The notes under the pieces: model-generated | Told to the model about the DNA's origin: nothing | What the model saw: only the letters and a program-made list of their open reading frames with translations | The model's database searches: none | Position numbers and translations under genes: made by a program | DNA from: Aureimonas sp. SA4125 | GTDB lineage: Bacteria > Pseudomonadota > Alphaproteobacteria > Rhizobiales > Rhizobiaceae | Reading direction: 5' to 3' | Assembly: GCF_019973775.1 (NCBI RefSeq) | Contig: NZ_AP025032.1 | Location: 4,904,067-4,968,066 of the forward strand | DNA: 64,000 nucleotides | In this document: one piece after another, positions 29,328 to 48,764 of the stretch | How positions within the stretch are numbered: position 1 is the first letter of the stretch | Layout: the number at the start of each line of letters is the position of its first letter

Positions 29328-31694
29328 TCAGTCGGGCCGCCCATGCGGGCGCAGGAGGTTGTCGCTCCAGCGCGGCGCGATGTGCGGGAAGGCGAGCGCC
29401 GGCTTGCGGTCGAGGAGCATTTCCAGCACCCGCGGCGGCGTCAGCGGCAGTTCCTCGACGCGCCGGCCAGTGGCGTTGGCCACGGCGCAGGCGATCGTCG
29501 CCCCGACATTGAGAATCGGTACTTCGCCCGCGCCCTTGGTGCCGAGCGGGCCCATCGAGGGCGCCCCCTCGTGCAGCGCGATCGTGACCGGCACCACGTC
29601 CTCGGCGAGCGGCAGGCGGTAGGTCTCGAAGCCGCCCTGGCAGATCCGGCCGCCGGCATCGATGGAGGCTTCCTCGTGCAGCGCGTAGCCGAGGCCCTGC
29701 ACGACGCCGCCCTGGATCTGGCCATGGATGGCGCTCGGGTTCAGCGCCCGGCCCACATCCTGGACGACGCGATAGGCCAGCACCTCGACATGGCCGGTCT
29801 CGGGGTCGACGGCGACGTCGCAGTCATGCACGGCGAAGACCGGGATATCGAGCGCCTCGATGAAATGCCCGGCGGCGCAGCCCGACATCGCCGGCGTTCC
29901 CCGTCCGGTGAAGGCGCCGGTACCGGCGACGGGTCCGTGCTTGGCCTGCGCCCGCGCCGCGACCTCGGCAATCGTGTAACCGAACCCGTTCGCCCCGGCG
30001 ATCTCGATCCGGCCCTCCGTCATCACGAGATCCTCAGGGTCGGCCTCCAGCATCTCGCCCGCCATCCTCAGAAGCGTCGTGCGCACCGCCTCGGCCGCCG
30101 AAAGGCTGGCGGCCCCGAGCGAGACCGTGGTGCGGCCGCCGCCGACGCCGACGTCGAAGCCGGCCGCATCGGTATCGGCGGTGCGCACGATCACCTGGTC
30201 GGGCCTCAGGCCGAGCGCGCCGGCGACGATCTGCGGCAGCGCCTGCATCATCGAGCCCGACCCGATCTCGACGCCGGAGGTGACCAGCGTCGCGCTGCCG
30301 TCGGCATTCATGTTGACGGTGGCCGCGGAGGGGCCGGTGAAGACGAACCAGGTGCCGACAGTCGTCGCATGCCCGTAGAGGCGCCCATCGTTCGGCACGG
30401 CGACCGGGCTCTGCGCGCGCAGGGCCTGCATCTTGTCCAGCATCGGACGCAGCACCGCACCCTCGAAGACCTGGCCGGTGGCGCCGAGATCGCCGTCGCC
30501 GAGCACGTTGCGGCGCCGGAATTCCAGCCGGTCCATGCCGATCGCCGCTGCGATCTCGTCGGTATGCCGCTCCAGCGCGAAGGTGTTGTAGACGCCGTTG
30601 CAGGCGCGAAAGGCGCCATTCGGCGGCGAGTGCGTATAGACGGCGCGCGAAACGAGGCGCGCCGCGCCGAGCCGGTAGTTTCCGCCGAGCGTATGGGCGG
30701 TCATGGTGGTGAGAAAGATCTGCTCCCCGCCATAGGCGCCGCAGTCCATCAGCACCACGGCCTCGCGCCCGGCGATCTCGCCGTCCGCCGTCACCGCCGA
30801 GCGGATGAGAATCTCGGCGTTTTCGCGAAACAGGCAGGTCAGCATCTCCTCCTGCCGCGTGTTGACGAGGCGCACCGGGCGCCTTGCCTTGCGTGCGAGC
30901 AGCGCGGCGAAGGGCTCCATCGCCCAGTCGAACTTCAGGCCGAAGGCGCCGCCGACGGCCGGGACCGTCACCCGCACGTCCGAGGCCGGCACCCCGATCA
31001 GCCGTGCCGTGGTATTGCGGACCGTCCACGGCACCTGCGTCGACGTCTCGATGTGGAACCGCCCATCCTCGAAGTGCGCCAGCACCGCACGCGGCTCGAA
31101 CGAGACGTGGTTCTGGCGACCGACGCGAAAAGAGCTCTCGACCACGGTGACGTCGTCGCGCGCGAAGGCTGCATCGACGTCGCCGCGCACCGAGCTCGCC
31201 TCCCAGGCGATGTTGCCGCCATGCGCGCCGCCCTCGAACAGAACATCGTAGTCCGCCCAGTCCGGGTGGACGAGCGGCGCGCCCGGCGCGAGCGCGGCTT
31301 CCATGTCGACGACCGCAGGAAGCGGCGCGATCTCCACCTCGATCGCCCGCATCGCCGCCTCGGCCTCGGCCAGCGTCTCGGCGGCGACGGCGGCGAGCGG
31401 CTCGCCGTCGTAGCGCACGACGTCGCGGGCAAACAGCGGGTGGTCGGCAATGCCGATGCCCGCCTGTCCCGGCGCATCCGCCGCCGTGACGATCGCCCTG
31501 ACACCCGGCATCGCCTCCGCCTTCGCGGTATCGAGGCTGAGGATGCGGCCGGACGGAACGGCGGCGCGCAGCACCACGGCGTGCAGCATGCCGGCGCTTT
31601 TGCGGTCGATCGTATAGCGCGTGAGGCCCATCAGCTTGTCCAGGGCATCGCGCCGGCGGAAATCCATGACCGAGGCGTCGGGCGAGGTGTCCAT
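29328..31694 (-). CDS. Molybdopterin-binding subunit of a xanthine-dehydrogenase-type hydroxylase
   Basis: 788-aa catalytic large subunit. The enzyme family hydroxylates carbon next to nitrogen in heterocycles, or aldehydes, with water as oxygen donor. Visible are the N-terminal hammerhead domain (about 12-115), the cofactor regions VGGAFGLKFDW (near 250) and PPNGAFRACNG (near 360), and the C-terminal GTKGAGE holding the catalytic Glu. The CO-dehydrogenase motif (AYxCSFR) is absent, so it is not form I CoxL. It is the last gene of an operon with its FAD and 2Fe-2S subunits. No XdhC-like maturation factor is present in the window. The substrate is inferred to be an N-heterocycle from the neighbouring ring-opening enzymes. 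Confidence 0.9.
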   Translation of the reverse strand: MDTSPDASVMDFRRRDALDKLMGLTRYTIDRKSAGMLHAVVLRAAVPSGRILSLDTAKAEAMPGVRAIVTAADAPGQAGIGIADHPLFARDVVRYDGEPLAAVAAETLAEAEAAMRAIEVEIAPLPAVVDMEAALAPGAPLVHPDWADYDVLFEGGAHGGNIAWEASSVRGDVDAAFARDDVTVVESSFRVGRQNHVSFEPRAVLAHFEDGRFHIETSTQVPWTVRNTTARLIGVPASDVRVTVPAVGGAFGLKFDWAMEPFAALLARKARRPVRLVNTRQEEMLTCLFRENAEILIRSAVTADGEIAGREAVVLMDCGAYGGEQIFLTTMTAHTLGGNYRLGAARLVSRAVYTHSPPNGAFRACNGVYNTFALERHTDEIAAAIGMDRLEFRRRNVLGDGDLGATGQVFEGAVLRPMLDKMQALRAQSPVAVPNDGRLYGHATTVGTWFVFTGPSAATVNMNADGSATLVTSGVEIGSGSMMQALPQIVAGALGLRPDQVIVRTADTDAAGFDVGVGGGRTTVSLGAASLSAAEAVRTTLLRMAGEMLEADPEDLVMTEGRIEIAGANGFGYTIAEVAARAQAKHGPVAGTGAFTGRGTPAMSGCAAGHFIEALDIPVFAVHDCDVAVDPETGHVEVLAYRVVQDVGRALNPSAIHGQIQGGVVQGLGYALHEEASIDAGGRICQGGFETYRLPLAEDVVPVTIALHEGAPSMGPLGTKGAGEVPILNVGATIACAVANATGRRVEELPLTPPRVLEMLLDRKPALAFPHIAPRWSDNLLRPHGRPD

Positions 31695-31703
31695 GCCGTG
31701 CTC

Positions 31704-32162
31704 CTATCGACCGGTGGCGACGGACAGAGCGGCATCGACGATGCGCTCATAGCCCGTGCAGCGACAGATGTTGCCGGACAGCGCGGCACGCACCGCCTCG
31801 CGGCTCGGCTGCTGGGTGCGCGCCAGGAAATCCGTCAGCGCGACGACCATGCCGGGAAAGCACATGCCGCACTGGACGGCGTCGTGCGCCTCGAAGGCGG
31901 CCTGCAGCGGTGAGGGAACGCCGCCGGCGGACAGTCCCTCGACGGTGACGATGTCGGTTCCTTCGGCGAGCGCTGCGGGCGTCAGGCAGGACAGGACCGG
32001 CGTGCCGTCGACGAGCACCATGCAGGCGCCGCAGAAACCTTCGCGGCAGACGGGCTTGGCGCCGGTGAGGTGGAACTCGTCGCGCAGCACGTCGACGAGC
32101 GGCACCAGGGCAGCGGCGGTGGAAGAGCGTCTTTCTCCGTTGATCGTCATCTCGATCGGCAT
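31704..32162 (-). CDS. 2Fe-2S subunit of a xanthine-dehydrogenase-type hydroxylase
   Basis: 152-aa electron-transfer subunit with two iron-sulfur clusters. The ferredoxin-like N-domain carries the Cys set VCREGFCGAC plus a later Cys in VLSCLTP, and the helical C-domain carries CGMCFPGM and NICRCTG. The first Cys context (VCREGFCGAC) is slightly unlike the commoner GCxxGxCGAC but keeps all ligands. It lies 9 bp upstream of the molybdopterin subunit and 14 bp downstream of the FAD subunit. Confidence 0.93.
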   Translation of the reverse strand: MPIEMTINGERRSSTAAALVPLVDVLRDEFHLTGAKPVCREGFCGACMVLVDGTPVLSCLTPAALAEGTDIVTVEGLSAGGVPSPLQAAFEAHDAVQCGMCFPGMVVALTDFLARTQQPSREAVRAALSGNICRCTGYERIVDAALSVATGR

Positions 32163-32176
32163 GGTATGTCCTCCAG

Positions 32177-33025
32177 TCAGGCGGCGGCGAGAAGCAAAGT
32201 GGCGGCGCGCCGCACCAGCGCCGGCAGGACCCTGACGCGGTACCAGCCGGGTGCCTCGACGCCGTCGCGGCCGGTGAAGTCGGCACTGTGCGTCTCGGCG
32301 AGCCGCGCGAGGGTGTCGGGGTCGAGCGCCTGTCCGGCCAGCGCGGCTTCGAGCGATGTCCAGCGGCGGGCGACCGCCTCGACCGAGCCGACGGCGATGT
32401 CGGCGATCGCGATCCGCCCCGCCCCATCCAGGGTCACGGCAAGGCTCACCACCGCCACCGGATAGTCGCCGGCCTTGCGCAGCGGCAACCGCGCATGCGC
32501 GGACCGCGCCGCGGAGCGCGGCAGGACGATTTTTGTCAGAAGCCGCCCCGGGCCGAGCGCGGTGCGCCGGTGCAGGAAAGTCTCGATCGCCATCCGCTCC
32601 TCGCCGCGGCGGCCGGCGATCTCCACCTCGGCGCCGAGCGCCAGCAGCGCCGGGACGAGATCGGCGGCGGCAAAATCATGCGCCGCGAGATTGCCGCCGA
32701 CCGTCGCCATGTGGCGCACCGCCGGATTGGCGGATTTGCCGGCAGCCGTCGCCAGGGCTTCGAGGCCGGACAGACCGTCGAGAGCCTTCGCCAGTGCCGC
32801 ATGGGTGGCGCCGGCGCCAATCTCGATGCGTGCCTCGCCGACCGCGATCGTCTTCAGCGCTGCGATCCGCGAGAGAGCGACATAAGCGGGCTTGAACGCC
32901 GCGCCGCGCAAGGGCGCGCGCATGATCCAGGTGCCGCCCGCCAGCGGTGCGCCGGCCTCGCCACGCTCGTCGAGCGCATCGACCGCGGCGGGCAGCGACG
33001 GGGCGAGGTAGATATCGGGGGGCAT
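32177..33025 (-). CDS. FAD-binding subunit of a xanthine-dehydrogenase-type hydroxylase
   Basis: 282-aa medium subunit (CoxM/CutM type). The FAD phosphate loops are APLAGGTWIM (near 26-35) and ATVGGNLAAHDFAAADL (near 106-122), both recognisable though the first lacks the usual GGTD/GGQS ending. It transfers electrons from the 2Fe-2S clusters to NAD+ or another acceptor. It is the first of the three hydroxylase genes, directly after the ABC permease genes on the same strand. Confidence 0.9.
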   Translation of the reverse strand: MPPDIYLAPSLPAAVDALDERGEAGAPLAGGTWIMRAPLRGAAFKPAYVALSRIAALKTIAVGEARIEIGAGATHAALAKALDGLSGLEALATAAGKSANPAVRHMATVGGNLAAHDFAAADLVPALLALGAEVEIAGRRGEERMAIETFLHRRTALGPGRLLTKIVLPRSAARSAHARLPLRKAGDYPVAVVSLAVTLDGAGRIAIADIAVGSVEAVARRWTSLEAALAGQALDPDTLARLAETHSADFTGRDGVEAPGWYRVRVLPALVRRAATLLLAAA

Positions 33026-33107: not shown

Positions 33108-34115
33108 TCAGCGCGTCTTCAGGCGGGCCCGGTCGAGGACCACGCCGATGATGACGATCGCCCCCAGCACGACCATCTGCACGTAGCCGTCGATGCGCGT
33201 CAGGTTCATGCCGTTGGACAGGATGGTGATGAACAGCGCGCCGAGGACGGCCGTGCCGACGCCGCCGCGCCCGCCGGCGAGGCTCGTGCCGCCGACGACG
33301 GCCGCGGCGATCGCCTGGAGGGACAGCGAGCCGCCGAGATTGGGCTCGCCCGAGCCGGTGCGGGCCGTCAGCATCAGGGCGCCGAGTGCGGCGAGACAGG
33401 AGCAGAGCACATAGGCGGAGACGAGGACGCGCCTCACCGGGATGCCGGCAACCGCCGCCGCGCGCGGATTGGTGCCGACGAGGTAGAGCGAGCGGCCGAA
33501 CACGGTGCGGGTCAGGGCGAAATGCAGGACCAGGCCGGCGAGGACGGCGATGACGATCGCCGCCGGGACGCCGAACACGTCGCCGCGATAGAGCAGCGTC
33601 GAGAACAGGTCCGGCATGCCCTGCACCGGCTTGCCGGCCGACAGCGTCGTGGCGATGCCGATGGCGATGTTGTAGCTGCCGAGCGTGGCGACGAAGGGGC
33701 TGACGCCGAGCAGCGCGATCACCACGCCGTTGAACAGGCCCGTGGCGGCACCGAGGCCTATGCCCGCGACGAGGCCGATCAGCAACACCGTGACGGGATC
33801 GCTGCCACCACCGACGGCCGCCGTCATCGCCACGGCCGCACCGACGCTGACCATCGATACCGCCGGTCCGAGCGAGAGGTCGAAGCCGCGGGTGATGATG
33901 ACCACGGCCTGCGCCATGGCGAACAGCGCGATGTAGCTCGTCTGCTGGGCGATGTTGACGAGGTTGGCGGCGGAGAGAACGCGGCTGTCGGCGATCGAGA
34001 AGGCGAGAAAGAGGACGACGAGGGCGATCGGCAGCGCCCACTGCCAGAGCTGCGCGCTCCAGGACGGGGAGGAAGCCGTGTCGGCGACGGCGAGCGGGGG
34101 AGACAGGTCAGACAC
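33108..34115 (-). CDS. ABC transporter permease 2 (RbsC type)
   Basis: 335-aa CUT2-type permease with about eight to ten helices. Marks are MAQAVVIITRGFDLSLGPAV (near 64-83), LFNGVVIALLGVSPFVATLG and AIAAAVVGGTSLAGGRGG. The start is GTG 34115 behind GCAGGAGGAAGACTC. It overlaps the end of the first permease by eight bases. It works with the permease at 34108-35118, the ATPase at 35115-36665 and the TorT-like binding protein. Confidence 0.9.
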   Translation of the reverse strand: MSDLSPPLAVADTASSPSWSAQLWQWALPIALVVLFLAFSIADSRVLSAANLVNIAQQTSYIALFAMAQAVVIITRGFDLSLGPAVSMVSVGAAVAMTAAVGGGSDPVTVLLIGLVAGIGLGAATGLFNGVVIALLGVSPFVATLGSYNIAIGIATTLSAGKPVQGMPDLFSTLLYRGDVFGVPAAIVIAVLAGLVLHFALTRTVFGRSLYLVGTNPRAAAVAGIPVRRVLVSAYVLCSCLAALGALMLTARTGSGEPNLGGSLSLQAIAAAVVGGTSLAGGRGGVGTAVLGALFITILSNGMNLTRIDGYVQMVVLGAIVIIGVVLDRARLKTR

Positions 34116-35118
34116 GAGTCTTCCTCCTGCGGCCCTGTTCCTCGGCCGCCACCGCCGCCACCATGATGACGCCGAGGAAGACCGGCTGCAGCCGCGAGTC
34201 GATCTGCAGAAGGTTGAGGGCATTGCTGAGAATGGTCAGGAACAGCGCGCTGACGGTGACGATCTCGATCCGGCCGATGCCGCCGCGAAGGCTGACGCCG
34301 CCAATCACCGCTGCGGCGATCGACTGCAGCATCATCCGGTCGCCGCCGAAACTCGCCTGGCCGGAGCCGACCTGGGCGGTCAGGAGAATGCCGGTGGCCG
34401 CTGCCAAAACGCCGGACAGGGCGTAGGTGCCGACAAGGTGGCGGTTGACCGATACGCCGGAAATCGTCGCCGCCTCGGCATTGCCGCCGATGGCGAAGAC
34501 ATAGCGCCCGAACAGCGTCCGCCGCTGCACGAAGATCATCACCAGCACGACCGCGATGGCGACGTAGATCGCCGTCGGCAGGCCGAGGAACTGGGCCCGG
34601 CCAAATTCCTTCACGAAGCTTTCCGGCATGCCGTAGACAGGGATGCCGCTGGTGATCATCAGGCCGACGCCGGCCGCAGCCGACATGGTGCCGAGCGTCA
34701 CCACGAAGCCCGAGACCTTCAGCCGGGCGACGCAGATGCCGTTGACCAGCCCGATCGCGAGGCCCGAGCCGAGGCCGGCGAGCACGCCGCAGGCGATGAT
34801 CGCCGCGTCGTTGCCGGGAAAGGCGAGAGCGGCCATGCCCATCACCTTGGCGGTGACGACGCTGGCCAGTGCGATCACCGCGCCGACGGAGAGGTCGAAG
34901 CCGCCGGCGATGATGACGATCGCCTGGCCGCAGGCGACGATGGTGAGCAGGGATGCGTTGCGCAGAATGTTGATGATGTTGATCGGGCCGTAGAACTGCG
35001 GCGAGACCAGCGACATGCCGATGACGACGACGATAAGGAGAACGGGCAGGAAACCGAGCCGGAGCGCAAAGCCCGATCGCGCGGGGGCGCCCGATTGGCG
35101 CGCGGCGGCGGCGCTCAT
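34108..35118 (-). CDS. ABC transporter permease 1 (RbsC type)
   Basis: 336-aa CUT2-type permease. Marks are ACGQAIVIIAGGFDLSVGAV (near 62-81), LVNGICVARLKVSGFVVTLG and SIAAAVIGGVSLRGGIGR. The start ATG 35118 overlaps the ATPase stop by four bases (ATGA). The C-terminus is arginine-rich (EEQGRRRKTRV). Confidence 0.9.
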   Translation of the reverse strand: MSAAAARQSGAPARSGFALRLGFLPVLLIVVVIGMSLVSPQFYGPINIINILRNASLLTIVACGQAIVIIAGGFDLSVGAVIALASVVTAKVMGMAALAFPGNDAAIIACGVLAGLGSGLAIGLVNGICVARLKVSGFVVTLGTMSAAAGVGLMITSGIPVYGMPESFVKEFGRAQFLGLPTAIYVAIAVVLVMIFVQRRTLFGRYVFAIGGNAEAATISGVSVNRHLVGTYALSGVLAAATGILLTAQVGSGQASFGGDRMMLQSIAAAVIGGVSLRGGIGRIEIVTVSALFLTILSNALNLLQIDSRLQPVFLGVIMVAAVAAEEQGRRRKTRV

Positions 35119-36665
35119 GCCGCGGCCTCGGCGAGATGGTCCTTGAAGAAGCTCGACAGGACGTTCTGCTCCGTCTTCGCCGCGCCTTCGAGCTCGGCGG
35201 CGATGCGGCCGTGGTGCATCACGTAGAGACGGTTCGACAAGGCCAGCACCTCCGGGAGTTCAGACGAGACGACGATCACCGCCGCGCCCGCCTCGACGAG
35301 CCGCTTCATGAATTCGTAGACCTCGACCTTGGCGCCGACGTCGATCCCGACGCTCGGCTCGTCGAACAGGAAGATCGAGAGGTCGCGCGTCAGCGCCCGC
35401 CCGAGCATCACCTTCTGGCGGTTGCCGCCGGAGAGGTTGCCGACGGCGCGCTCGATGTTGGGCGGGCGCAGATTCAGCTGTTCCATGATCGGGTTGATCA
35501 GCAGCTTCTCGGCACCCTGGCGCAGCATGCCGAAGGTGACGAACCGCTTGAGGTCGAGCGCCGTCATCGAGGCGTTCTCGCGGATCGGCCGCGACAGCGC
35601 GAGCCCTTCGGCGACGCGGTTGGCCGGAAAATACGCCACGCCCTTGCGCAGGCTGGCGCGCGGATCGGCCGATTCATAGGGCATGCCGTGCAGGCGGACG
35701 GTGCCGCCTGTCACCGGCTCGAGCCCGTAGATGGCACGCACCAGCTCGGACTTGCCGCAGCCGACCAGACCGGCAATGCCGGTGATCTCCCCGGTGCGGG
35801 CGTAGAAATTGACATCCGAGACGATGCCGCCGGCGACGGAGAGATTTTCGACGTCGACGGCCACCGTACCGGGCACGTGGGCGATGGCTGGAAACAGCAC
35901 GTCGATCTTGCGGCCGGTCATCAATTCGACCAGTTCACCGTCGGTGACGGCAGCGGCGTCGAGCGTGCGGATCAGCTTTCCATCGCGCAGCACGGTGACG
36001 CGGTCGGCGAGCGCCCGGATTTCCCGCATGCGGTGCGAGACGTAGATGATGCCGACGCCTTGGGCCTTCAGCTTGGCGATCAGTTCGAACAGCCGGCCGG
36101 TCTCCCTTTCGGTGAGCGAGGCCGTCGGCTCGTCGAGGATCAGAAGGCGCGCTCTGCCGAGCAGGGCCTTGGCGATTTCGACCATCTGCTGGTGCGCCCG
36201 TGACAGGTCGTCGACGCGGGCGGCGGGATCGAGATCGAAACCAAGCTCGTCGATCAGCGCCCGCGCTTGCTTGCGCATGTCGCCGGCGCGCAGCACGCCG
36301 CCGGCGGACAGCTCGCGGCCGAGGAAGAGGTTCTCCTCGACGGTCATGGTCGGCACCAGCGAGAATTCCTGGAAGACCGGGCTGATGCCGATGGCGCGGG
36401 CACGCTGCGGCGTGAGGTGGCGGATCTCCTCGCCGCCGAAGCGAAACTCGCCACCATCGGGCGGGAAGGTGCCGGCGATGACGTTGATCAGCGTCGACTT
36501 CCCCGCCCCGTTTTCGCCGAAGAGCACATGAAGCTCGCCGGCGCGCACGTCGAAATCGACCCGGTCGAGGGCCAGAACGCCCGTGAACCGCTTCGAGATG
36601 CCCGCCAGGTGGAGCAGAGGCTCCGTCTCCCGGCAGTGCGTTCCGACTTCGCCGGTCTGCCCCAT
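35115..36665 (-). CDS. ABC transporter ATP-binding protein (RbsA type)
   Basis: 516-aa double ATPase. The N-half has Walker A GENGAGKST (about 50-58), a divergent signature DLSRAHQQMVEIAKAL and Walker B LLILDEPTAS. The C-half has a degenerate Walker A (GLVGCGKSELVRA, closer to canonical than most C-halves), signature LSGGNRQKVMLGRAL and LFDEPSVGID. It is 33 bp downstream of the binding-protein gene and coupled to both permeases. Although the ATPase is annotated as sugar-type by homology, the binding protein points to a nitrogenous ligand. Confidence 0.9.
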   Translation of the reverse strand: MGQTGEVGTHCRETEPLLHLAGISKRFTGVLALDRVDFDVRAGELHVLFGENGAGKSTLINVIAGTFPPDGGEFRFGGEEIRHLTPQRARAIGISPVFQEFSLVPTMTVEENLFLGRELSAGGVLRAGDMRKQARALIDELGFDLDPAARVDDLSRAHQQMVEIAKALLGRARLLILDEPTASLTERETGRLFELIAKLKAQGVGIIYVSHRMREIRALADRVTVLRDGKLIRTLDAAAVTDGELVELMTGRKIDVLFPAIAHVPGTVAVDVENLSVAGGIVSDVNFYARTGEITGIAGLVGCGKSELVRAIYGLEPVTGGTVRLHGMPYESADPRASLRKGVAYFPANRVAEGLALSRPIRENASMTALDLKRFVTFGMLRQGAEKLLINPIMEQLNLRPPNIERAVGNLSGGNRQKVMLGRALTRDLSIFLFDEPSVGIDVGAKVEVYEFMKRLVEAGAAVIVVSSELPEVLALSNRLYVMHHGRIAAELEGAAKTEQNVLSSFFKDHLAEAAA

Positions 36666-36698: not shown

Positions 36699-37781
36699 CT
36701 ACTTGGCCTTGACGCTGTAGACCGGCGTCCAGTCGCCCGGTGCCAGGATCAGGTCCATCTGCAGGTTCGGCACGGTGGTCTTGTCGACCACCGCCGCCAC
36801 CGGCTGGACGAGGCTCATCACCGGCTTCTTCTCGAGCAGCCGGACCGCCTGGTCGATGGCGATGGCGCCCTCGCCAACCGGATACTGCGTCGCGAAGGCC
36901 AGGATGTCACCGCGGTTCAGCGCGTCGAGCATGGCCTGGTTCTCGTAGGACGACATGATCTTGATGTCGGTGCGCCCGGCTTCGGCCACGGCACCGATCG
37001 CCGCTTCCGCCGTCGGGGCCGATCCCCAGATCACGTTCATCTCGGGATGCGCCTGCAGCGCATCCTGGATGAGCTGCAGCTGCACGGCGACGCCGCTGTC
37101 GCCGAACTTCTCGTCGAGGATCGTCACGTCCGGGTTCTTGGAAACCGCCGTCTTGAATCCTTCGTTGAAGGATTCGGCCCAGCCCGAGCCTGCCGGGCCC
37201 GGGAAGGTCACGACATTGGCCTTTTCGCCGGCCGGCAGCTGCGCGAGCAGGCCCTCGCCGGTCACCGCGCCCATGGCGACGAAGTCGACGGCATTGGCGG
37301 CGGGCGTCGCATTGGCCGGAATGGGGTTGGTGACGCCGACGACCGGAATGTTCTTGGCCGCGGCTTCCTTGAATTTCTGCTCGAGGCCCGCGCCCGAGAT
37401 CGCGCCGACGATGATCGCGTCCGAACCGCTCGCCAGGCAGTCGTCGAACTGCGAGAGCTGCTTGGGCAGGTTCTCGTAGCCGCCGGCCTCGTAGAGCGTC
37501 ATGTTGACGTTCATCGCCTCGGCCTGCTTGACGATGCCGTAGGCGACCGCGACCCAGAAGCTGTCCTTCATGTGCGGGAACAGAACGCACAGATTGTAGG
37601 GCTTCTCTGCCTTTTCCAGCGGCGTGTACTCGGCATCCACCGGCGTGCCGGAGGAGGAGTCGTAGATCTTCATCGGCCACCAGGCGGCGTCGGCGGCGAG
37701 ACTGGGCGACACCGCACCGGCGACCATGCCGAGACAGGTGGCGGCAGCGAGGCTGTGGCGGAGGCGAGAGCGAAGAAACAT
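36699..37781 (-). CDS. TorT-like periplasmic binding protein of an ABC transporter
   Basis: 360-aa precursor, start ATG 37781 behind AAGAAGGATTG, with a signal peptide (1-31, ending PSLAADA). The mature N-terminus WWPMKIYDSSSGTPVDAEY, then LCVLFPHMKDSFWVAVAYG, LYEAGGYENLPKQLSQ and DAIIVGAISGAGL, is the pattern of TorT, the periplasmic trimethylamine-N-oxide receptor that in enterobacteria partners the TorS sensor kinase. Here no sensor kinase is present; ATPase and permease genes follow at once, so the TorT fold serves as a transport receptor. The ligand is plausibly a small N-containing compound. Confidence 0.85.
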   Translation of the reverse strand: MFLRSRLRHSLAAATCLGMVAGAVSPSLAADAAWWPMKIYDSSSGTPVDAEYTPLEKAEKPYNLCVLFPHMKDSFWVAVAYGIVKQAEAMNVNMTLYEAGGYENLPKQLSQFDDCLASGSDAIIVGAISGAGLEQKFKEAAAKNIPVVGVTNPIPANATPAANAVDFVAMGAVTGEGLLAQLPAGEKANVVTFPGPAGSGWAESFNEGFKTAVSKNPDVTILDEKFGDSGVAVQLQLIQDALQAHPEMNVIWGSAPTAEAAIGAVAEAGRTDIKIMSSYENQAMLDALNRGDILAFATQYPVGEGAIAIDQAVRLLEKKPVMSLVQPVAAVVDKTTVPNLQMDLILAPGDWTPVYSVKAK

Positions 37782-37863
37782 GGCTGCAATCCTTCTTGCT
37801 TGAGGGGGAAGCGGACGGGAGGCGCGGGTTTGCGCCCCGTCCGACGGCACTGCTTCGCGCTGC

Positions 37864-41855: not shown

Positions 41856-42136
41856 GGTGAGCGTTTCCCTTTCCGGTCTCCTGGCGGTTGCGCGGGGTCT
41901 CCCGCCGCCCGGTCGCACGATGACGATCGCGTCCGGCCTCTGGCGGCAGCAGGATGGTGCCCGCGCTCTCGGGAGGGATTAAACGGCCTTTTCCGCTGCT
42001 TCTCTTGGTCCCCAGCGCATCAAACTTTGATCCTCTGTGCACTTCGGCACAAATTTTGGGCCGCGGTCCGTTCTGCCCGTTTACCAACCATGCAGTGCAG
42101 CATCGCGCGGCGTTGCCCTGTGCAGCGCAGGCACGC
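41856..42136. promoter_or_regulatory. Regulatory spacer upstream of hyuA with an inverted repeat
   Basis: 281 bp between the araC stop and hyuA. It contains TGTGC (42036-42040) facing GCACA (42047-42051) across six bases, and A/T-rich sequence (AAATTTT) beside it. It is the likely promoter/operator region of the hyu operon; which regulator binds is not shown. Confidence 0.4.
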
Positions 42137-43102
42137 TCAGACGGGCTGGCTCGCCTCACGCGCGGCGGCGCGGACCTCGCTCGGCGTGCAGCCAAACCGC
42201 GCCCGGTAGCTGCGGCTGAACTGCGCCTGGTCGCCGAACCCCCAGTCATAGGCGATCTCAGCGATCGCCTTGCGGCAGTGCGGGTCCTTCAGCGCCGCGT
42301 CGCACATCAACAGCCGCCGGTTCCGGACATGCGCCGAAACCGTCGTTCCCTCGGCCTCGAACAGCTGGTGCAGATAGCGCAGCGAGATGCCGCAGCCGTC
42401 GGCGATGGCCTGCGGTGCCAAGTGCGGATCGCGCAGGTGGCTGCCAATGAAGTGCTCGGCGCGGTGAAGATGGGCGTTGCGCACCGAGGACGAGCGGCCG
42501 ACGAGAACCCTCTGGTCGGCCTCGATCGCCATGGCCAGGAGATCGACGAGATGGCGTCCCATCCGCGCGCGCTCATCTGCCTCCATCTCGTCGAGCCGTG
42601 GCGCCGTGAGGCGCAGCATGTCGACGAACAGCGCGCCGACGCTGCGGCTGGCGTCGAACTGCAGCGTCGCCAGGCGCTCCGGTCGGGCGATGCGGGCGCG
42701 CAGAACGTCGCTCGGGATCTTCAGCACCCAGAGTGCGGCGCGCTCGCGGTGGCTGAAATCATAGGGCAGATGGCTGCGCTCTATCAGGAACTGGCCGGGA
42801 CGGCACTGCACCTCCTTGCCGTCCTGGGCGAAGCGGATCTCCGCCACCTCCGGCACCGTGATGAGAAAGCTCTCTTCCCGTTCGTTCAGAAGGTGGCGCT
42901 CATGACGCCGGTAGAGGAGCCCATCGCATCGGTTGCGCGAGAGCGCGATCGACCCGAGCGTCCAGGCGTCGAGCGTGCCGTCGAACGCGCCGACCGACTG
43001 GAAGCGCAGATCGAGCGGGAAATAGGTCTGTGAGACGGCCTGCTGCCAAAACGCCTTGCTGCCGCCCTTGGGACTGCTGCTGGTCGAGAAGGTGGCTCGC
43101 AT
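42137..43102 (-). CDS. AraC family transcriptional regulator
   Basis: 321-aa activator. The N-terminal part matches the AraC-binding-like domain of NdpR/FeaR-type regulators (SVGAFDGTLDAWTLGSIAL, then RPGQFLIERSHLPYDFSH). The C-terminal 100 residues hold two helix-turn-helices (QAIADGCGISLRYLHQLF, and IAEIAYDWGFGDQAQFSRSY). The start ATG 43102 is preferred, nine bases after GGAG; a TTG three codons upstream overlaps that site. Its place between pxpA and hyuA suggests it activates the hyu/transport/hydroxylase operon in response to the substrate. Confidence 0.9.
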   Translation of the reverse strand: MRATFSTSSSPKGGSKAFWQQAVSQTYFPLDLRFQSVGAFDGTLDAWTLGSIALSRNRCDGLLYRRHERHLLNEREESFLITVPEVAEIRFAQDGKEVQCRPGQFLIERSHLPYDFSHRERAALWVLKIPSDVLRARIARPERLATLQFDASRSVGALFVDMLRLTAPRLDEMEADERARMGRHLVDLLAMAIEADQRVLVGRSSSVRNAHLHRAEHFIGSHLRDPHLAPQAIADGCGISLRYLHQLFEAEGTTVSAHVRNRRLLMCDAALKDPHCRKAIAEIAYDWGFGDQAQFSRSYRARFGCTPSEVRAAAREASQPV

Positions 43103-43230: not shown

Positions 43231-43956
43231 TCAACCGAACCAGGGGCGCAGGGCCGCGTTGACGGCGCGTGCCAGCTGATCGGCCCCCGGCGTATCGGAA
43301 TGGATGCAGACCGTGTCGGCGCGCATCGGCAGGTCGCCGCCCTCGATGGTCGTCGCCAGGCCCTCACTCATCACCCGCACGGCCCGGCGCGCCGCTTCCG
43401 CGGCGTCCTTGGCGGCGTGCTGGCGGGTGATGATGAGCTTGCCCTCGGCGTCGTAGTCGAGGTCGGCATAGTATTCGGCGATGAAGGGGATCGTACGCCT
43501 GGTGTAGACGGTTTCCTGGAGCGTACCGGCCATGCCGAGCAGCGGCACGCCAAAAATCTCGGCGGCGTCGGCAATGGCTTCCGCCACCTCCTCGCTGCGG
43601 ATGGCGGCGCCGTAGAGCGCCCCATGCGGCTTGATGTGGTTGAGCGGCATTCCCGCCTCGTCGAGAAAGGCCTTCAGCGCGCCGACCTGATAGACGATGC
43701 AGGCCGAGAGTTCGTCGCGGCCCATCTTCATCTCGCGCCGGCCAAAACCCTGCAGGTCGGGAAAGGACGGATGCGCCCCGACGGCGACGCCGTGCTCGCC
43801 GGCCAGCTTCACCGCGGCGCGCATGATCGAGGGGTCGGAGGCATGGAAGCCGCAGGCGACGTTGGCGATGTGGATATGCGGCATGATGGCGGCATCGTCG
43901 CCGCAACGGTAGAGGCTGAACCCCTCTCCCATGTCGCAATTGATGGTGACACCCAT
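43231..43956 (-). CDS. pxpA: 5-oxoprolinase subunit A (LamB/YcsF family)
   Basis: 241-aa TIM-barrel-like protein. PxpA with PxpB and PxpC forms a widespread ATP-dependent 5-oxoprolinase that opens pyroglutamate to glutamate. Family motifs are INCDMGEGFS at the N-terminus, NVACGFHASDPSIM, GAHPSFPDLQGFGRREM and HIKPHGALY. It stands alone, 128 bp before araC and downstream of lysR, separated from pxpB/pxpC, which are on the other strand. A 27-codon relic of another pxpA lies after pxpC at 48681. In this setting the substrate may be another lactam. Confidence 0.9.
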   Translation of the reverse strand: MGVTINCDMGEGFSLYRCGDDAAIMPHIHIANVACGFHASDPSIMRAAVKLAGEHGVAVGAHPSFPDLQGFGRREMKMGRDELSACIVYQVGALKAFLDEAGMPLNHIKPHGALYGAAIRSEEVAEAIADAAEIFGVPLLGMAGTLQETVYTRRTIPFIAEYYADLDYDAEGKLIITRQHAAKDAAEAARRAVRVMSEGLATTIEGGDLPMRADTVCIHSDTPGADQLARAVNAALRPWFG

Positions 43957-44035: not shown

Positions 44036-45019
44036 TTAAGCGGGCGACGACATCTGAAAATCCGATGGCCTTCGGACGAGCCCTTCGCTTTCCCCGGCCG
44101 CAACAGTGCGACTGACGCCGACGCCGGTCACGGCGAAGCGCATGAAGTTGCGGAACGCCTCGGTGGCGCTGCCTAGATCGGCCTCGCGGCTCCAGGCGAG
44201 GCCGACGTCCATGCTCGGCACCTCGTCCTCGATGATGCGCGTCTCGATCCGCTGGCCCTCCAAGGACCATGGCCGGTAAATCAGTTCCGACAGGACGGTG
44301 ATCCCCATTCCGCCGGCCACCATCGACCGCACGGCCTCCACCGAGGAGGTGCGGAAGATGGTGCGCGGCTCGAGATCCGCGGCGCTCCAGTAGCGCATCG
44401 CCGTGTGTTTCGCCTCGTCGACCGTCAGCATGACATAGGGGTGCTGCGCGATGTCGGCGAGCCGCACCCGCTCGGCCGCGGTCAGGGGATGGCCCGGCGC
44501 GAGCCAGAGCCGGCGCGGCGACCGGGTGAGGATTTCGCTGGCGATCCGGGCCTCGTCGCGCAGGTTGGAGACCAGCAGCACCGCGATGTCGAGCACCCCG
44601 TCGGCCAGCGCCTGCTCCAGAACGTCGCGCGGCGCCTCGAACAGTTCCAGCGTGACGCCGGGAAAATTGGACTGGAACCGCATCTGGTGGCGCGGCAGGA
44701 AATAACCCGCAACGGTGTAGGTGACGCCGACGCGGACCTTGCCGGTGATGGCGCCGCCCGAGACATGCGGGCTGTGCACGGCCTCGGCGACCGCCGCCAG
44801 AATCTGCCGTCCCTGCGACAGGAAGCGGCTGCCCTCGAGCGTGACGGTGACGCCGGAGGGCGTGCGCTCCAGAAGCTTCGTGCCGAGCAGCGCCTCGAGC
44901 TGCTGGATGGCGGCGGTGACCGCCGACTGCGAAACATTCAGCGCGACCGCCGCCTGGCCGATCCGCCCGGCCTCGGCGGCGGCGACGAAATAGCGGATCT
45001 GCTTGAGCGAAACGGACAT
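44036..45019 (-). CDS. LysR family transcriptional regulator
   Basis: 327-aa regulator. The N-terminal winged helix is residues 1-60 (LKQIRYFVAAAEAGRIGQAA, LNVSQSAVTAAIQQLEALLG), followed by the linker and a two-lobe effector domain (GKVRVGVTYTVAGYFLP). It is divergent from the biotin-carrier gene and 79 bp upstream of pxpA on the same strand, so it is placed to control both pxp transcripts. T-N11-A boxes are found at 45056-45070 and 44052-44066. The start ATG 45019 was chosen by homology. Confidence 0.92.
   Translation of the reverse strand: MSVSLKQIRYFVAAAEAGRIGQAAVALNVSQSAVTAAIQQLEALLGTKLLERTPSGVTVTLEGSRFLSQGRQILAAVAEAVHSPHVSGGAITGKVRVGVTYTVAGYFLPRHQMRFQSNFPGVTLELFEAPRDVLEQALADGVLDIAVLLVSNLRDEARIASEILTRSPRRLWLAPGHPLTAAERVRLADIAQHPYVMLTVDEAKHTAMRYWSAADLEPRTIFRTSSVEAVRSMVAGGMGITVLSELIYRPWSLEGQRIETRIIEDEVPSMDVGLAWSREADLGSATEAFRNFMRFAVTGVGVSRTVAAGESEGLVRRPSDFQMSSPA
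44052..44066. promoter_or_regulatory. Second candidate LysR box upstream of pxpA
   Basis: ATCTGAAAATCCGAT has ATC...GAT symmetry with T-N11-A. It shares the run TCCGATGGCCT, in the same orientation, with the box in the lysR-accB gap. It lies inside the 3' end of lysR, about 90 bp before the pxpA start. Confidence 0.45.
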
Positions 45020-45157: not shown

Positions 45158-45400
45158 ATGACCGTCAAGACCATTCAGGCCCCCCTCCCGGGCACCTTCT
45201 ACCGCTCGGCTTCGCCCGGCGAGCCCGTGTTCAAGACCGAGGGCGACGCCGTCGCGGTCGGCGACACGATCGGGCTGATCGAGGTGATGAAGTCCTTCAC
45301 CCCGGTCGTCGCCGAAGAGGCCGGCACGCTGAAGGCCTTCCATGTCGACAACGAGGACGCGGTGATGGCGGGCCAGCCGCTCTACGACCTCGACGCCTGA
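45158..45400 (+). CDS. Biotin carboxyl carrier protein (AccB-like, urea-carboxylase-type system)
   Basis: 80-aa stand-alone biotinyl domain. The biotin attachment Lys is K45 in IEVMKSF (canonical E/A-M-K-M becomes V-M-K-S), flanked by beta strands TIQAPLPGTFYRS and EAGTLKAFHVDNEDAV. It is about half the size of fatty-acid AccB and lacks the proline/alanine linker, and it is followed 5 bp later by a biotin carboxylase and then by pxpB/pxpC, so it is not the housekeeping acetyl-CoA carboxylase carrier. It probably shuttles carboxybiotin to the AHS1/AHS2 proteins encoded downstream. Confidence 0.87.
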   Translation: MTVKTIQAPLPGTFYRSASPGEPVFKTEGDAVAVGDTIGLIEVMKSFTPVVAEEAGTLKAFHVDNEDAVMAGQPLYDLDA

Positions 45401-45404: not shown

Positions 45405-46796
45405 ATGGCGATCTCCAAGGTCTTCGTCGCCAATCGCGGCGAGATCGCCGTCCGCATCATCCGCGCCGCCCGCGAGCTCGGCCTTGCCACCGTCCAGGCG
45501 GTGAGCGCGGTGGACGGCGCGATGCTGGCCGCCCGGCTCGCCGACGAGACGATGCCGGTCGGCCCGGCGCATGCGACGAAATCCTATCTGAACAAGGCGG
45601 TCATGGTGCAGGCTGCGATCGACAGCGGCTGCGATGCGGTGCATCCCGGCTACGGCTTTCTGTCGGAGAATGCCGAGTTCGCCGAGATGGTGGAGGCGGC
45701 CGGCCTCGTCTTCATCGGCCCGCGGCCGGAGACGATCCGCAAGATGGGCGACAAGGCCCGCGCCCGGCAGGAAGCGATGGAAGCCGGCGTGCCGACGGTA
45801 CCGGGCAGCGACGGCGTGGTGGAGAGCGTCGAGGTGGCGATCCTCGCCGCCCGCGACATCGGCTACCCCGTGATGATCAAGGCTTCGGCCGGCGGCGGCG
45901 GGCGCGGCATCCGTGTCGCCCGCGACGAGACCGAGCTCGCGGCCCTGATCCCGCAGGCGAGCGGCGAGGCGAAGGCCGCCTTCGGCAACGGCGGGCTCTA
46001 TCTCGAGCGCTTCATCGCCAAGGCGCGGCATGTCGAGGTGCAGATTCTGGGCGACGGCACCCGCGCCATCCACCTGTTCGAGCGCGAATGCTCGCTGCAG
46101 CGCCGCCGCCAGAAGGTCTGGGAGGAGGCTCCCGCCGCCTGCCTCAGGCCCGACCAGCGCGACGCGCTGTGCACATCGGCTGTGCGCCTCGCCGAGCGGG
46201 TCGGCTATCGCGGCGCCGGGACGCTCGAATATCTTTTCGACGAGACCACCGGCGAGTTCTTCTTCATCGAGATGAACACCCGCATCCAGGTCGAGCATCC
46301 CGTCACCGAGATGGTCACCGGCATCGACCTTGTTCGCTGGATGATCCGCATCGCCCATGGCGAGGCGCTGACGATCCGGCAGGAGGACGTGCACCTGCGC
46401 GGTCATGCCGTGGAGGCGCGGATCTGCGCCGAGGATCCGGCGCTCGACTTCCGCCCGGCCCCCGGCACCGTCATCGCGCTGGAAATTCCCGGCGGCATGG
46501 GCGTGCGCTTCGACACCCTCCTCTATCCCGGCTATGCCGTGCCGCCCTTCTACGATTCCCTCCTCGGCAAGCTCGTCGTCCATGACGAGACGCGCGACGC
46601 CGCCATCACCCGGATGGCCCGGGCCCTGACGGAGCTGCGCGTCGAGGGTCTGCCGACCACGACGCCGCTGCACGTGGCGCTGGCCGCCGATCCGCAGGTG
46701 CGGGCCGGGAATTTCCACACCCGCTGGCTGGAGGATTGGCTCACCGCCCATCCCCTCGGCTCTCCCTCATCTCCCGAAGCGGAAACCAGCCGATGA
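45405..46796 (+). CDS. Biotin carboxylase (AccC-like) of a dedicated carboxylase
   Basis: 463-aa ATP-grasp enzyme that carboxylates biotin with bicarbonate. Visible are the N-terminal VFVANRGEIAVRIIRAA, VHPGYGFLSENAEFAE, the glycine-rich ATP loop SAGGGGRGIR (near 166), the HVEVQILGDG strand and the catalytic EMNTRIQVEHPVTE. It lies in an operon with a biotin carrier, pxpB and pxpC. These four proteins together equal the domains of urea carboxylase. The start ATG 45405 is 5 bp after the carrier stop, and its own stop overlaps pxpB (ATGA). Confidence 0.92.
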   Translation: MAISKVFVANRGEIAVRIIRAARELGLATVQAVSAVDGAMLAARLADETMPVGPAHATKSYLNKAVMVQAAIDSGCDAVHPGYGFLSENAEFAEMVEAAGLVFIGPRPETIRKMGDKARARQEAMEAGVPTVPGSDGVVESVEVAILAARDIGYPVMIKASAGGGGRGIRVARDETELAALIPQASGEAKAAFGNGGLYLERFIAKARHVEVQILGDGTRAIHLFERECSLQRRRQKVWEEAPAACLRPDQRDALCTSAVRLAERVGYRGAGTLEYLFDETTGEFFFIEMNTRIQVEHPVTEMVTGIDLVRWMIRIAHGEALTIRQEDVHLRGHAVEARICAEDPALDFRPAPGTVIALEIPGGMGVRFDTLLYPGYAVPPFYDSLLGKLVVHDETRDAAITRMARALTELRVEGLPTTTPLHVALAADPQVRAGNFHTRWLEDWLTAHPLGSPSSPEAETSR

Positions 46797-47662
46797 CGAC
46801 ACGCTATTCCTTCGGCGGCGACGAGCACATCTTCGTCGAGGTGGACGAGGAAATGTCGCTCGAGGCCTTCTTCAAGAGCCTCTCGATGACCAATGCCGTG
46901 CGCGACAGCGGCATTGCCGGCATCACCGAGATCTGCCCGGCCAACGCCTCGTTCCAGATCAAGTTCGATCCCGACGTGATCGCGCCGGAGGCGCTGATGG
47001 AGAGGCTGAAGGACTTCGAAGCGGCGGCGGAGAGCGCGGACAAGACGATCGAGACCCGGATCATCGAGATCCCCGTCCTCTACAACGACCCCTGGACGCA
47101 CGAGACCCTGATGCGGTTTCGCGAGCGGCATCAGGACCCGGACTCGACCGATCTTGAATATGGCGCCCGGATCAATGGCTACGACAGCGTCGAGGCATTC
47201 ATATCGGCGCATGCGGGCGCGCCGTGGTTCGTCTCGATGGTCGGCTTCGTCGCCGGCCTGCCGTTCATCTACCAGCTGGTGGAGCGCTCGAAGCAGATCG
47301 AGGTGCCGAAATACCTGCGTCCCCGCACCGACACGCCAAAACTGACGGTCGGTCATGGCGGCTGCTTCGGCTGTATCTATTCGGTGCGCGGCGCCGGCGG
47401 CTACCAGATGTTCGGGGTGACGCCGATGCCGATCTACGATCCGAAGGGGGAGATCAGCTATCTCAAGGAGCTGATGATCTTCCGACCCGGCGACATCATC
47501 AAGTTCAAGCCGATCGACCGCGCCGCCTACGATGCCGCGGTGGAAGCCGTGGAGGCCGGCCGCTTCGAACCAAGGATCGTCCCCGTCCGCTTCTCCCTCG
47601 ACGCCTTCACCGCCGATCCCGAAGGCACCAACGCCAAGCTCCTGGAGGCCCTGGATGGCTGA
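46793..47662 (+). CDS. pxpB: 5-oxoprolinase subunit B / carboxyltransferase AHS1 domain protein (KipI family)
   Basis: 289-aa cyclophilin-like AHS1 protein. Family marks are the N-terminal SFGGDEHIFVEVDEEMS, IPVLYNDPWTHETL and the late RGAGGYQMFGVTPMPIYD with the GDIIKFKPI strand. It is about 60-70 residues longer than enterobacterial PxpB, and closer in length to the AHS1-type part of urea carboxylase. Besides forming 5-oxoprolinase with PxpA and PxpC, AHS1/AHS2 domains form the carboxyltransferase site of urea carboxylase, which suits the biotin genes upstream. Eight-base overlap with pxpC. Confidence 0.88.
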   Translation: MTTRYSFGGDEHIFVEVDEEMSLEAFFKSLSMTNAVRDSGIAGITEICPANASFQIKFDPDVIAPEALMERLKDFEAAAESADKTIETRIIEIPVLYNDPWTHETLMRFRERHQDPDSTDLEYGARINGYDSVEAFISAHAGAPWFVSMVGFVAGLPFIYQLVERSKQIEVPKYLRPRTDTPKLTVGHGGCFGCIYSVRGAGGYQMFGVTPMPIYDPKGEISYLKELMIFRPGDIIKFKPIDRAAYDAAVEAVEAGRFEPRIVPVRFSLDAFTADPEGTNAKLLEALDG

Positions 47663-48647
47663 TGTCAGCATGTTCGATGTCGTCAAGCCGGGCCTCGCCA
47701 CGACGGTGCAGGACCTCGGCCGTCCCGGCTACTACCATCTCGGCCTGCCGATCTCCGGCGCGATGGACCGCTTCGCGCTGATCGCCGCCAACCGCCTCGT
47801 CGGCAACGAGGACGGGGCCGCCGGGCTCGAGGCGGTGTTCCTCGGGCCGGAGCTGCGTTTTGCCAGCGACGCGCTCGTCGCGGTCACCGGCGCCGACCTG
47901 CCGCCCAAGGTCGACGGCGTCGAGCAGCCCGGCTGGACAGCGTTCAAGGTCGCAGCGGGCCAGGTTCTGTCCTTCGGTTTCCTGAAGGGCGGCGCCCGCG
48001 CCTACATCGCCGTCGCCGGCGGCATCGACGTGCCGGCGGTGCTCGGATCGCGCTCGACCTACGCGCTCGGCGCGCTTGGCGGCTTCGAGGGACGTGCCCT
48101 GAAGGCGGGTGATCAGGTCAAGCTCGGCACGCCGACCGGACCGGGCCGCGAAGGCATTGCTCTCGCAGCGGACATCCGCCGCGCTGTCAGCGCGACGGGA
48201 ACCACCGTGCGCGTCCTGCCAGGGCTCTACTGGCACCGCCTCACCGAGGGCGCGCAGGCGACCTTCTTCGAGGACAGCTGGAAGGTCGCGCCCGAGGCCG
48301 ACCGCATCGGCTACCGCTTCCGCGGCGGCCAGAAGCTCGACTTCGTGCCGCGCGAGCAGCCCTTCGGCGCCGGCTCCGATCCCTCCAACATCGTCGACAG
48401 CTGCTATCCCTACGGCTCCATCCAGGTGCCGGGCGGCACCGAGCCGATCATCCTCCACCGCGACGCCGTCTCCGGCGGCGGATATTTCATGCTCGGCACG
48501 GTGATCTCGGCCGACATGGACCTGATCGGTCAGCTGCAGCCGCACCAGAGCGTGCGATTCGAATCCGTCGACATGGCGCAGGCGCTGGCGGCCCGCCAGG
48601 AAGAGAAGGCCCGGCTTTCCCGTCTCGAAACGGCGCTGGCGGACTGA
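47655..48647 (+). CDS. pxpC: 5-oxoprolinase subunit C / carboxyltransferase AHS2 domain protein (KipA family)
   Basis: 330-aa AHS2 protein. The family pattern is VVKPGLATTVQDLGRPGYYH at the N-terminus, AMDRFALIAANRLVGN, RAYIAVAGGIDVPAVLGSRST and the ATP-site-like region DRIGYRFRGG with GSIQVPGG. It is the partner of PxpB. The start ATG 47655 lies inside the end of pxpB. It is the last intact gene of the operon; 33 bp after the stop begins a pxpA relic, showing that pxpA once followed here. Confidence 0.9.
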   Translation: MADVSMFDVVKPGLATTVQDLGRPGYYHLGLPISGAMDRFALIAANRLVGNEDGAAGLEAVFLGPELRFASDALVAVTGADLPPKVDGVEQPGWTAFKVAAGQVLSFGFLKGGARAYIAVAGGIDVPAVLGSRSTYALGALGGFEGRALKAGDQVKLGTPTGPGREGIALAADIRRAVSATGTTVRVLPGLYWHRLTEGAQATFFEDSWKVAPEADRIGYRFRGGQKLDFVPREQPFGAGSDPSNIVDSCYPYGSIQVPGGTEPIILHRDAVSGGGYFMLGTVISADMDLIGQLQPHQSVRFESVDMAQALAARQEEKARLSRLETALAD

Positions 48648-48680
48648 GGCAGGGACGGGAGAGGCTCCAAAGGGAGGCCG

Positions 48681-48764
48681 ACCATCCGCTTCGACATGGG
48701 CGAGGGTTTCAGCCTCCAAAACTTCGGCGACGACGAAAGAGCCATGCCTTTCGTGCCGCCATGA
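48681..48764 (+). pseudogene. N-terminal relic of a second pxpA (LamB/YcsF) gene
   Basis: The 27 codons before TGA read TIRFDMGEGFSLQNFGDDER then AMPFVPP. They align without gaps to residues 4-30 of the intact PxpA at 43231-43956 (TINCDMGEGFSLYRCGDD, then a Met-Pro pair), sharing the DMGEGFSL and GDD blocks. AAGGGAGG lies just upstream, but there is no ATG at the expected place. Nothing recognisable follows until gyrB. The ancestral order was therefore carrier - carboxylase - pxpB - pxpC - pxpA, and this copy was lost by deletion. Confidence 0.75.

Follow-up and report, generated by a model that had tools for sequence, protein, structure and literature searches.

Gene content and layout of the locus

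The window analysed here is a stretch of 64,000 nucleotides (nt) from Aureimonas sp. SA4125 (contig NZ_AP025032.1, forward-strand positions 4,904,067 to 4,968,066; host genome, 5.1 Mb), and the region of interest, a candidate catabolic gene cluster, spans 29.3-48.6 kb of it. An earlier note, made from the letters alone, had proposed that uptake, hydroxylation and opening of a cyclic amide or N-heterocycle are combined here in one route. All of the genes that it named are present, with support from Pfam and NCBIfam models, and we consider it very probable that the blocks of the cluster are functionally linked. The closest named relatives of its HyuA protein come from Aureimonas. Start codons are our choice for all of the gene coordinates listed below.

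Nine genes with gaps of at most 82 nt form an operon on the minus strand. The operon starts with hyuA (39831..41855) and hyuB (37864..39825), which are followed by the genes for a TorT-like periplasmic receptor of an ATP-binding cassette (ABC) transporter (36699..37850), an ABC ATPase with two ATPase domains (35115..36665; PF00005 in two stretches) and the CUT2-type permeases 1 (34108..35118; NCBIfam sugar-permease models, under their cut-offs) and 2 (33108..34115; PF02653). The last three genes encode a molybdenum hydroxylase with a flavin adenine dinucleotide (FAD) subunit (xdhM, 32177..33025; PF00941, PF03450), a 2Fe-2S subunit (xdhS, 31704..32162; PF01799, PF00111) and a molybdenum (Mo) subunit (xdhL, 29328..31694; PF02738, PF20256, PF01315).

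Adjoining this operon, and also on the minus strand, are genes for an AraC-family regulator (42137..43102; PF14525, PF12833), for PxpA (43231..43956) and for a LysR-family regulator (44036..45019; PF00126, PF03466). Divergent from the LysR gene, a plus-strand operon encodes a biotin carrier protein (bccp, 45158..45400), a biotin carboxylase (bc, 45405..46796), PxpB (46793..47662) and PxpC (47655..48647), and the end of pxpC at 48647 is the right border of the region. The biotin/pxp operon of the earlier note stands for these four plus-strand genes; pxpA, which had been counted with them, lies on the opposite strand beside the LysR gene.

Association of the gene blocks across genomes

Two samples were searched, an order-wide one of 199 genomes chosen without regard to the cluster and a nearer one of 60 relatives, both including the host genome. 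A hyuA orthologue was called at 70% identity or more, a line drawn by us (the next match among the 60 relatives was at 42%), and up to five candidates per genome were scored in the hyuA and Mo-subunit searches of the 199 genomes. In the order-wide sample hyuA had an orthologue in 8 genomes, pxpB in 24 and the Mo subunit in 8. All eight genomes with the Mo subunit had pxpB (Fisher p 1.4e-8; shared ancestry is not removed from this or any other Fisher p value given here), within 16 kb in six of the eight, and pxpB was present in 7/8 genomes with hyuA (p 1.2e-6). Among the 60 relatives, hyuA was found in 9, pxpB in 17, the Mo subunit in 8 and the receptor in 9. Every one of these nine hyuA genomes had pxpB (p 1.6e-6), within 30 kb in 7/9, and the corresponding counts were 8/8 for the Mo subunit with pxpB, 7/8 for the Mo subunit with hyuA and 7/9 for the receptor with pxpB.

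The two operons of the window, minus hyuAB, are one gene run in G052, G126 and G165, genomes that represent two families other than that of the host (G052 and G165 share a genus). The order in all three is pxpA-bccp-bc-pxpB-pxpC-TorT-ATPase-permease-xdhM-xdhS-xdhL on one strand, with a divergent LysR gene, and hyuAB is absent from these single-run clusters. Gene order was also compared in 80 named loci, the best 80 of 98 relatives from a scan of genome contigs, ten of them shorter than 20 kb. An AraC gene was present in 73 of these, xdhL in 62, pxpA in 61 and the receptor in 40; bc was found with pxpB or pxpC in 43 and xdhL with bc in 35. Thirty layouts were counted, some of them distinct merely through incomplete loci.

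In 16 Mesorhizobium-type loci (L088:17855-20064 and 15 others) a pxpA gene unaccompanied by pxpBC occupies the place between xdhL and the gene for an omega-transaminase; the full pxp module of such clusters lies several kb off in G016 and on a separate contig in G033. Directly after the transaminase, L088 has a cupin/SnoaL-like protein (20061-20729) with a relative in 19 other loci. A contig labelled as a Rhodospirillales metagenome-assembled genome (L042) carries a cluster 84-94% identical to the window, with no xdh genes within its stretch, and looks like a mis-binned Aureimonas contig. Split or interrupted frames in single relatives (xdhL in L054 and G022, hyuA in G089) are possibly decay or assembly errors.

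History of the pxp module

A tree of concatenated biotin carboxylase, PxpB and PxpC was built from 46 loci, 31 linked to hyuA and 15 unlinked. An Ensifer plasmid (L132) that carries hyuA at a distance of about 16 kb from the module was counted as linked. The tree requires 11 changes of the linked state (10 if L132 is called unlinked), and starred branches force at least six of them. Values as low as the observed one came from 72 of 500 label shuffles; the linked label is thus not clustered. With p values that serve as guides, the linked and near-HyuA groups having been named after the identities were inspected, a single clade of hyuA-linked pxp modules was rejected (p 1.4e-5 with 30 rows, 6e-25 with 31 rows and L132 linked), as was a single clade of the 20 modules that lie by hyuA of the Aurantimonadaceae, Ancylobacter and Bradyrhizobium (p 6e-7). 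In the HyuA tree these three fall in one starred group (98). Because their HyuA proteins group together while their pxp modules do not form one clade, it is probable that hyuA of Bradyrhizobium gained or swapped its adjoining pxp module in a separate event. The pxp tree does not distinguish gains from losses of hyuA linkage.

Another stable association of the pxp/biotin module is seen in Shinella, Rhizobium, Ensifer and Thioclava (L132, L135, L137, L133 and L176-L178). Its partners there are genes for a GntR regulator, a transporter of the ABC type, two short-chain dehydrogenases, a polysaccharide-deacetylase-like protein and a GTP-binding protein, and a further gene annotated as an amidase, an asparaginase or an unnamed protein; in Ensifer hyuAB follows the module.

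Genome co-occurrence, the single-run layout and the tree history are our reasons for holding that the blocks belong together. The linkage of the uptake, molybdenum-hydroxylase, HyuAB and pxp/biotin blocks proposed in the earlier note is borne out by single runs (without hyuAB), by the many layouts and by pxp modules that do not form one clade. Conservation of each block in unrelated contexts, which that note had named as evidence to the contrary, was seen in part, in the 15 pxp modules without a hyuA neighbour.

The pxp/biotin module

PxpA is a LamB/YcsF hydrolase (PF03746, 291.9 bits) and the sole match in the genome; it scores 260.2 bits with PRK05406.1-3, against a cut-off of 226. The biotin carrier protein, with 80 residues and the motif EVMKS, matches PF00364 and exceeds the cut-off of PRK07051 (112.9 against 87), and the biotin carboxylase exceeds that of PRK12833 (770.7 bits against 686); other biotin carboxylases of the genome are at best 52% identical to it. 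PxpB (AHS1-like) and PxpC (AHS2-like) resemble the two halves of a urea-carboxylase-type carboxyltransferase. PxpB scores 72.3 bits against the PxpB model TIGR00370, under the cut-off of 145.55, and more (106.6 bits) against urea carboxylase. Similarly, PxpC scores 211.4 against the 5-oxoprolinase model NF045499, under the cut-off of 500, and more (241.9) against urea carboxylase. The fused urea carboxylase model TIGR02712 (cut-off 1303.85) was not reached by the biotin carboxylase (509.2), PxpC or PxpB with their scores for that enzyme. The urea-type carboxyltransferase domains are present, PF02682 (CT_C_D) in PxpB and TIGR00724 in PxpC (271.5, cut-off 230.2); both are common to 5-oxoprolinase subunits and so do not discriminate.

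From these scores, PxpB, PxpC and the dedicated biotin carboxylase and carrier look like a split biotin enzyme of the urea carboxylase type that serves the LamB/PxpA hydrolase, and the annotation 'acetyl-CoA carboxylase / 5-oxoprolinase' that such modules receive is probably misleading. PDB entry 9yx5, which is presumably mycobacterial, contains AccA3 and chains designated as subunits 1 and 2 of allophanate hydrolase; a complex of a biotin carboxylase with AHS1 and AHS2 therefore seems already to have been solved. Related gene pairs were treated in a study whose authors we take to be Lombard and Moreira. Passages of that study describe two often adjacent prokaryotic genes that match the urea carboxyltransferase halves, functional data being absent according to its authors (PMC3199775). 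In the standard 5-oxoprolinase, as passages of another paper have it, PxpB/PxpC are assumed to phosphorylate the substrate, and PxpA has a part in the use of 5-oxoproline by C. glutamicum (PMC13274462). We propose a biotin-dependent variant because of the urea-carboxylase-like scores, the dedicated biotin carboxylase and carrier, the published gene pair and the 9yx5 complex; biotin-dependent lactam opening is put forward as a tentative suggestion.

HyuAB, transporter and molybdenum hydroxylase

HyuA (PF01968, PF05378, PF19278) and HyuB (PF02538, 519.6 bits) match the domain models of the hydantoinase/oxoprolinase superfamily. Against the caprolactamase models CapA and CapB they score 489 and 304.7 bits, both under the cut-off of 1000, and the top solved relative of HyuA by score is an N-methylhydantoinase. 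A fused HyuA-HyuB protein, with an open frame of 1250 amino acids, is encoded elsewhere in the genome (G000:C1:172078-175695) and is probably the ordinary 5-oxoprolinase of this genome. Because of this fused protein, 5-oxoproline was set aside as the main substrate of HyuAB.

The TorT-like receptor scores 223.5 against the TorT equivalog TIGR02955, under the cut-off of 310, and 295.8 against PRK10936, a model of the same name with a cut-off of 200. Its predicted structure has a sugar-type receptor fold, from which no ligand was obtained.

The three-subunit molybdenum hydroxylase belongs to its family by its Pfam domains and by Glu724 of the Mo subunit, which we take to align with the catalytic Glu of the xanthine oxidase family. 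Arg363 and Glu724 are invariant in all 36 rows longer than 700 residues (of 70 rows, the window included), and the same 36 rows have Phe255 and not a purine-type Glu; the three residues presumably align with Arg880, Glu1261 and Glu802 of bovine xanthine oxidase. None of the 13 curated NCBIfam models listed for the Mo subunit was reached (best score 426.6 against a cut-off of 994.55). The top solved relative is 4-hydroxybenzoyl-CoA reductase, followed by 6-hydroxypseudooxynicotine dehydrogenase. The structure model of the subunit (mean predicted local distance difference test score 52.6) was too poor to use.

Transaminases and the probable product

A class III pyridoxal phosphate (PLP) enzyme is encoded in 33 of the 80 named loci. 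It is of the omega-transaminase type (at least 52% identity to the Mesorhizobium protein of L088) in 27 loci and of the phospholyase type (at least 50% identity) in eight, two loci having both. The top solved relatives of the L088 protein are class III aminotransferases, including 6g4b, which we take to be the P. jessenii omega-transaminase, and L099 encodes a 4-aminobutyrate transaminase (GabT) above cut-off. Among more distant hyuAB clusters, that of Rhodococcus has gabT and an aldehyde dehydrogenase gene, and that of Halomonas genes for succinate-semialdehyde dehydrogenase and an aminotransferase. These transaminases and dehydrogenases of the relatives make an omega-amino acid (4-aminobutyrate or 5-aminovalerate, for example) the probable product, and the substrate is hence likely to be a lactam or its ring precursor. 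The amino acid at the end of the route had been left unspecified in the earlier note; that part of its claim is upheld to the extent that the transaminases favour an omega-amino acid.

Regulation and flanking genes

A 30-nt AraC-type site is common to the regions upstream of hyuA in Aureimonas, Jiella, Ancylobacter and Bradyrhizobium; in the window it occupies 42004..42033 (minus strand) and is a candidate operator of the hyuA operon. The model of the site was seeded from Ancylobacter and Bradyrhizobium, and 42004-42033 is the best match in the window to the model without Aureimonas. Since 56 of 100 simulated windows reach that score, the candidate rests on its position and conservation. A regular-expression search for the site gave no match, and in L079 and L126 a site of this type precedes the AraC gene instead. 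The biotin operon has its own divergent LysR regulator.

To the left of the operon are three possible accessory genes, for a GntR/FCD regulator (26088..26957, minus; PF07729, PF00392), an APH-type small-molecule kinase (26841..27953, plus; PF01636) and a class III PLP enzyme of the phospholyase type (27958..29274, plus), whose top solved relatives are the phospholyase 5g4i and the ethanolamine-phosphate phospho-lyase 6tor. The kinase is found in 10 of the 60 relatives at E 1e-20, the host genome counted. In Aurantimonadaceae loci the GntR gene again accompanies those for the kinase and the phospholyase. The three genes (26088-29274) recur at varying positions, by hyuA in some loci and by pxpC in others, in Aureimonas, Jiella, Fulvimarina and Aurantimonas, and a step on a phosphorylated amino alcohol may be part of this family's version of the cluster. 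On the other side, the next gene after pxpC is gyrB (48808-51375, minus); a search of the 80 named loci found it in none.

Proposed route and alternatives

We regard it as somewhat probable that the cluster encodes one catabolic route, in which a small lactam, or an N-heterocycle or cyclic imine that gives rise to it, is converted to an omega-amino acid. Gene content, repeated association and the single run without hyuAB are observed, and from them we infer every reaction, their order and the substrate. The CUT2-type transporter with its TorT-like receptor would import the substrate, and the molybdenum hydroxylase would probably oxidise a carbon adjacent to the ring nitrogen. HyuAB would be one of two ATP-using openers of amide bonds. 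The other would be the LamB/PxpA hydrolase, served by the split urea-carboxylase-like enzyme, which would activate the amide nitrogen through carboxylation. The resulting omega-amino acid would be transaminated by class III enzymes such as those found in the clusters of many relatives. In a more specific form, which we offer tentatively, the cluster would encode a biotin-dependent lactamase: the biotin carboxylase and carrier would charge PxpB/PxpC with carboxyl groups, PxpB/PxpC would carboxylate the nitrogen of the lactam supplied by the molybdenum hydroxylase and LamB/PxpA would hydrolyse the ring so activated. The smallest complete version of the pathway would then be the single-run operon (LysR | pxpA-bccp-bc-pxpB-pxpC-TorT-ABC-xdhMSL), with HyuAB as a second opener that can be exchanged for the first.

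A number of observations weigh against this interpretation. Of the 46 tree rows, 15 have a pxp module with no hyuA nearby, and in Shinella, Rhizobium ACO-34A and Thioclava the annotation shows no hyuA over about the next 20 kb; G089 has hyuAB without pxpB. When hyuA was counted down to 58% identity, pxpB was present in only 9 of 15 genomes (p 3.7e-6). The xdhL gene is absent from 18 of the 80 named loci, and xdhL, bc and pxpA are all absent from seven, five of which are shorter than 20 kb. A scan of the whole window found no second good AraC-type site near the biotin operon. No copy of the recurrent omega-transaminase gene lies close to the window; a 66% homologue is encoded elsewhere in the genome. 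Finally, the label 'PxpABC' given in the earlier note suits PxpA, which scores above its curated model, whereas PxpB and PxpC fall under the curated cut-offs; the top solved relative of PxpC is YbgK (161.5 bits), narrowly over urea amidolyase (156.6), and KipI and urea amidolyases tie for PxpB.

The strongest competitor, which we nevertheless judge unlikely, places the molybdenum enzyme last: a lactam would be imported, opened and transaminated, and the resulting semialdehyde would be oxidised by the molybdenum enzyme acting as an aldehyde oxidoreductase, an oxidation that aldehyde dehydrogenases carry out in caprolactam and 4-aminobutyrate breakdown. The consistent Phe255, at the position that we align with Glu802 of the bovine enzyme, fits such a role, and two clusters without xdh have semialdehyde or aldehyde dehydrogenases by the transaminase. 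The P. jessenii caprolactam cluster, as given in passages of its description, groups the lactamase, an omega-transaminase and 6-oxohexanoate dehydrogenase (PMC6061476). However, the two enzymes do not replace each other cleanly: among the 118 loci compared, aldehyde dehydrogenases (E 1e-30) occur in two that have xdh (L097 and L121) and are absent from several that lack it, and the runs of G052, G126 and G165 hold xdh with no transaminase inside the run. The solved relatives of the Mo subunit, together with its failure to reach any of the curated cut-offs listed, also speak against an aldehyde oxidoreductase.

It is improbable, in our estimation, that the cluster consists of two or three separate catabolic operons, together only as catabolic genes gather in variable rhizobial regions. 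The distinct AraC and LysR regulators, with no common site found in the window, would suit this explanation, as would the pxp modules that occur without hyuAB, with TorT ABC genes or other partners, and hyuA-linked rows are spread over the pxp tree, a pattern that losses may explain as well as gains. The single-run arrangement in two families argues otherwise, as do the co-occurrence counts from genomes that were not picked for having the cluster, the differing pxp modules by closely related hyuA genes and the position of pxpA between xdhL and the transaminase in 16 loci. A ureide or hydantoin route has an equally low probability. There the product of the hydroxylase would be a cyclic ureide such as a hydantoin, whose ring HyuAB would open, leaving a ureido group for the urea-carboxylase-like enzyme to attack. 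The attraction of this route lies in the N-methylhydantoinase relative of HyuA, in the resemblance of PxpB and PxpC to urea carboxylase and in a transporter of the cytosine-permease family in two distant clusters. Against it, the transaminase partners are of the omega-amino-acid and 4-aminobutyrate type, the genes identified in this cluster include no carbamoylase, and LamB/YcsF proteins are tied to lactams.

With the preferred reading, conversion of a lactam to an omega-amino acid, the recurrent 'acetyl-CoA carboxylase / 5-oxoprolinase' annotation gains a testable function and, in many alphaproteobacteria, a connection with molybdenum hydroxylases and with a transporter. The single-run operon offers a compact system for a direct test of biotin-dependent ring opening.

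Comparison with known systems

The cluster probably encodes a conserved pathway made from known enzyme families, and no description of this gene set was found in the titles or abstract openings of the open-licence papers that our searches listed. Its logic recalls anaerobic indoleacetate degradation in Aromatoleum, in which a molybdenum hydroxylase reportedly acts before the hydantoinase-like IaaCE, that is, oxidation by the ring nitrogen and then ATP-dependent lactam opening, with later steps said to depend on CoA. We know of no pxp/biotin module in that route. The indoleacetate route was set aside for the window's cluster because CoA genes are lacking there. IaaCE is named in passages of PMC8453981.

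The caprolactam route of P. jessenii shares with the cluster an ATP-dependent lactamase of the HyuAB type and, in many relatives' clusters, the omega-transaminase. It differs in that HyuA and HyuB of the window reach 489 and 305 bits against cut-offs of 1000 for CapA and CapB, and passages of its description name no molybdenum hydroxylase or biotin/LamB module (PMC6061476). The PxpABC 5-oxoprolinase likewise combines a LamB/YcsF hydrolase with AHS1 and AHS2 proteins, but PxpB and PxpC of the window are under the cut-offs and have a dedicated biotin carboxylase and carrier, in a genome that also has the fused HyuAB-type protein. Urea carboxylase and urea amidolyase have a biotin carboxylase, a carrier and a carboxyltransferase of the same two domain families, whereas the enzyme of the window is split in four genes with a LamB hydrolase adjoining. 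In PDB 9yx5 a biotin carboxylase subunit is likewise found together with AHS1 and AHS2 chains, its carboxylase being, in contrast to that of the window, an acyl-CoA carboxylase subunit.

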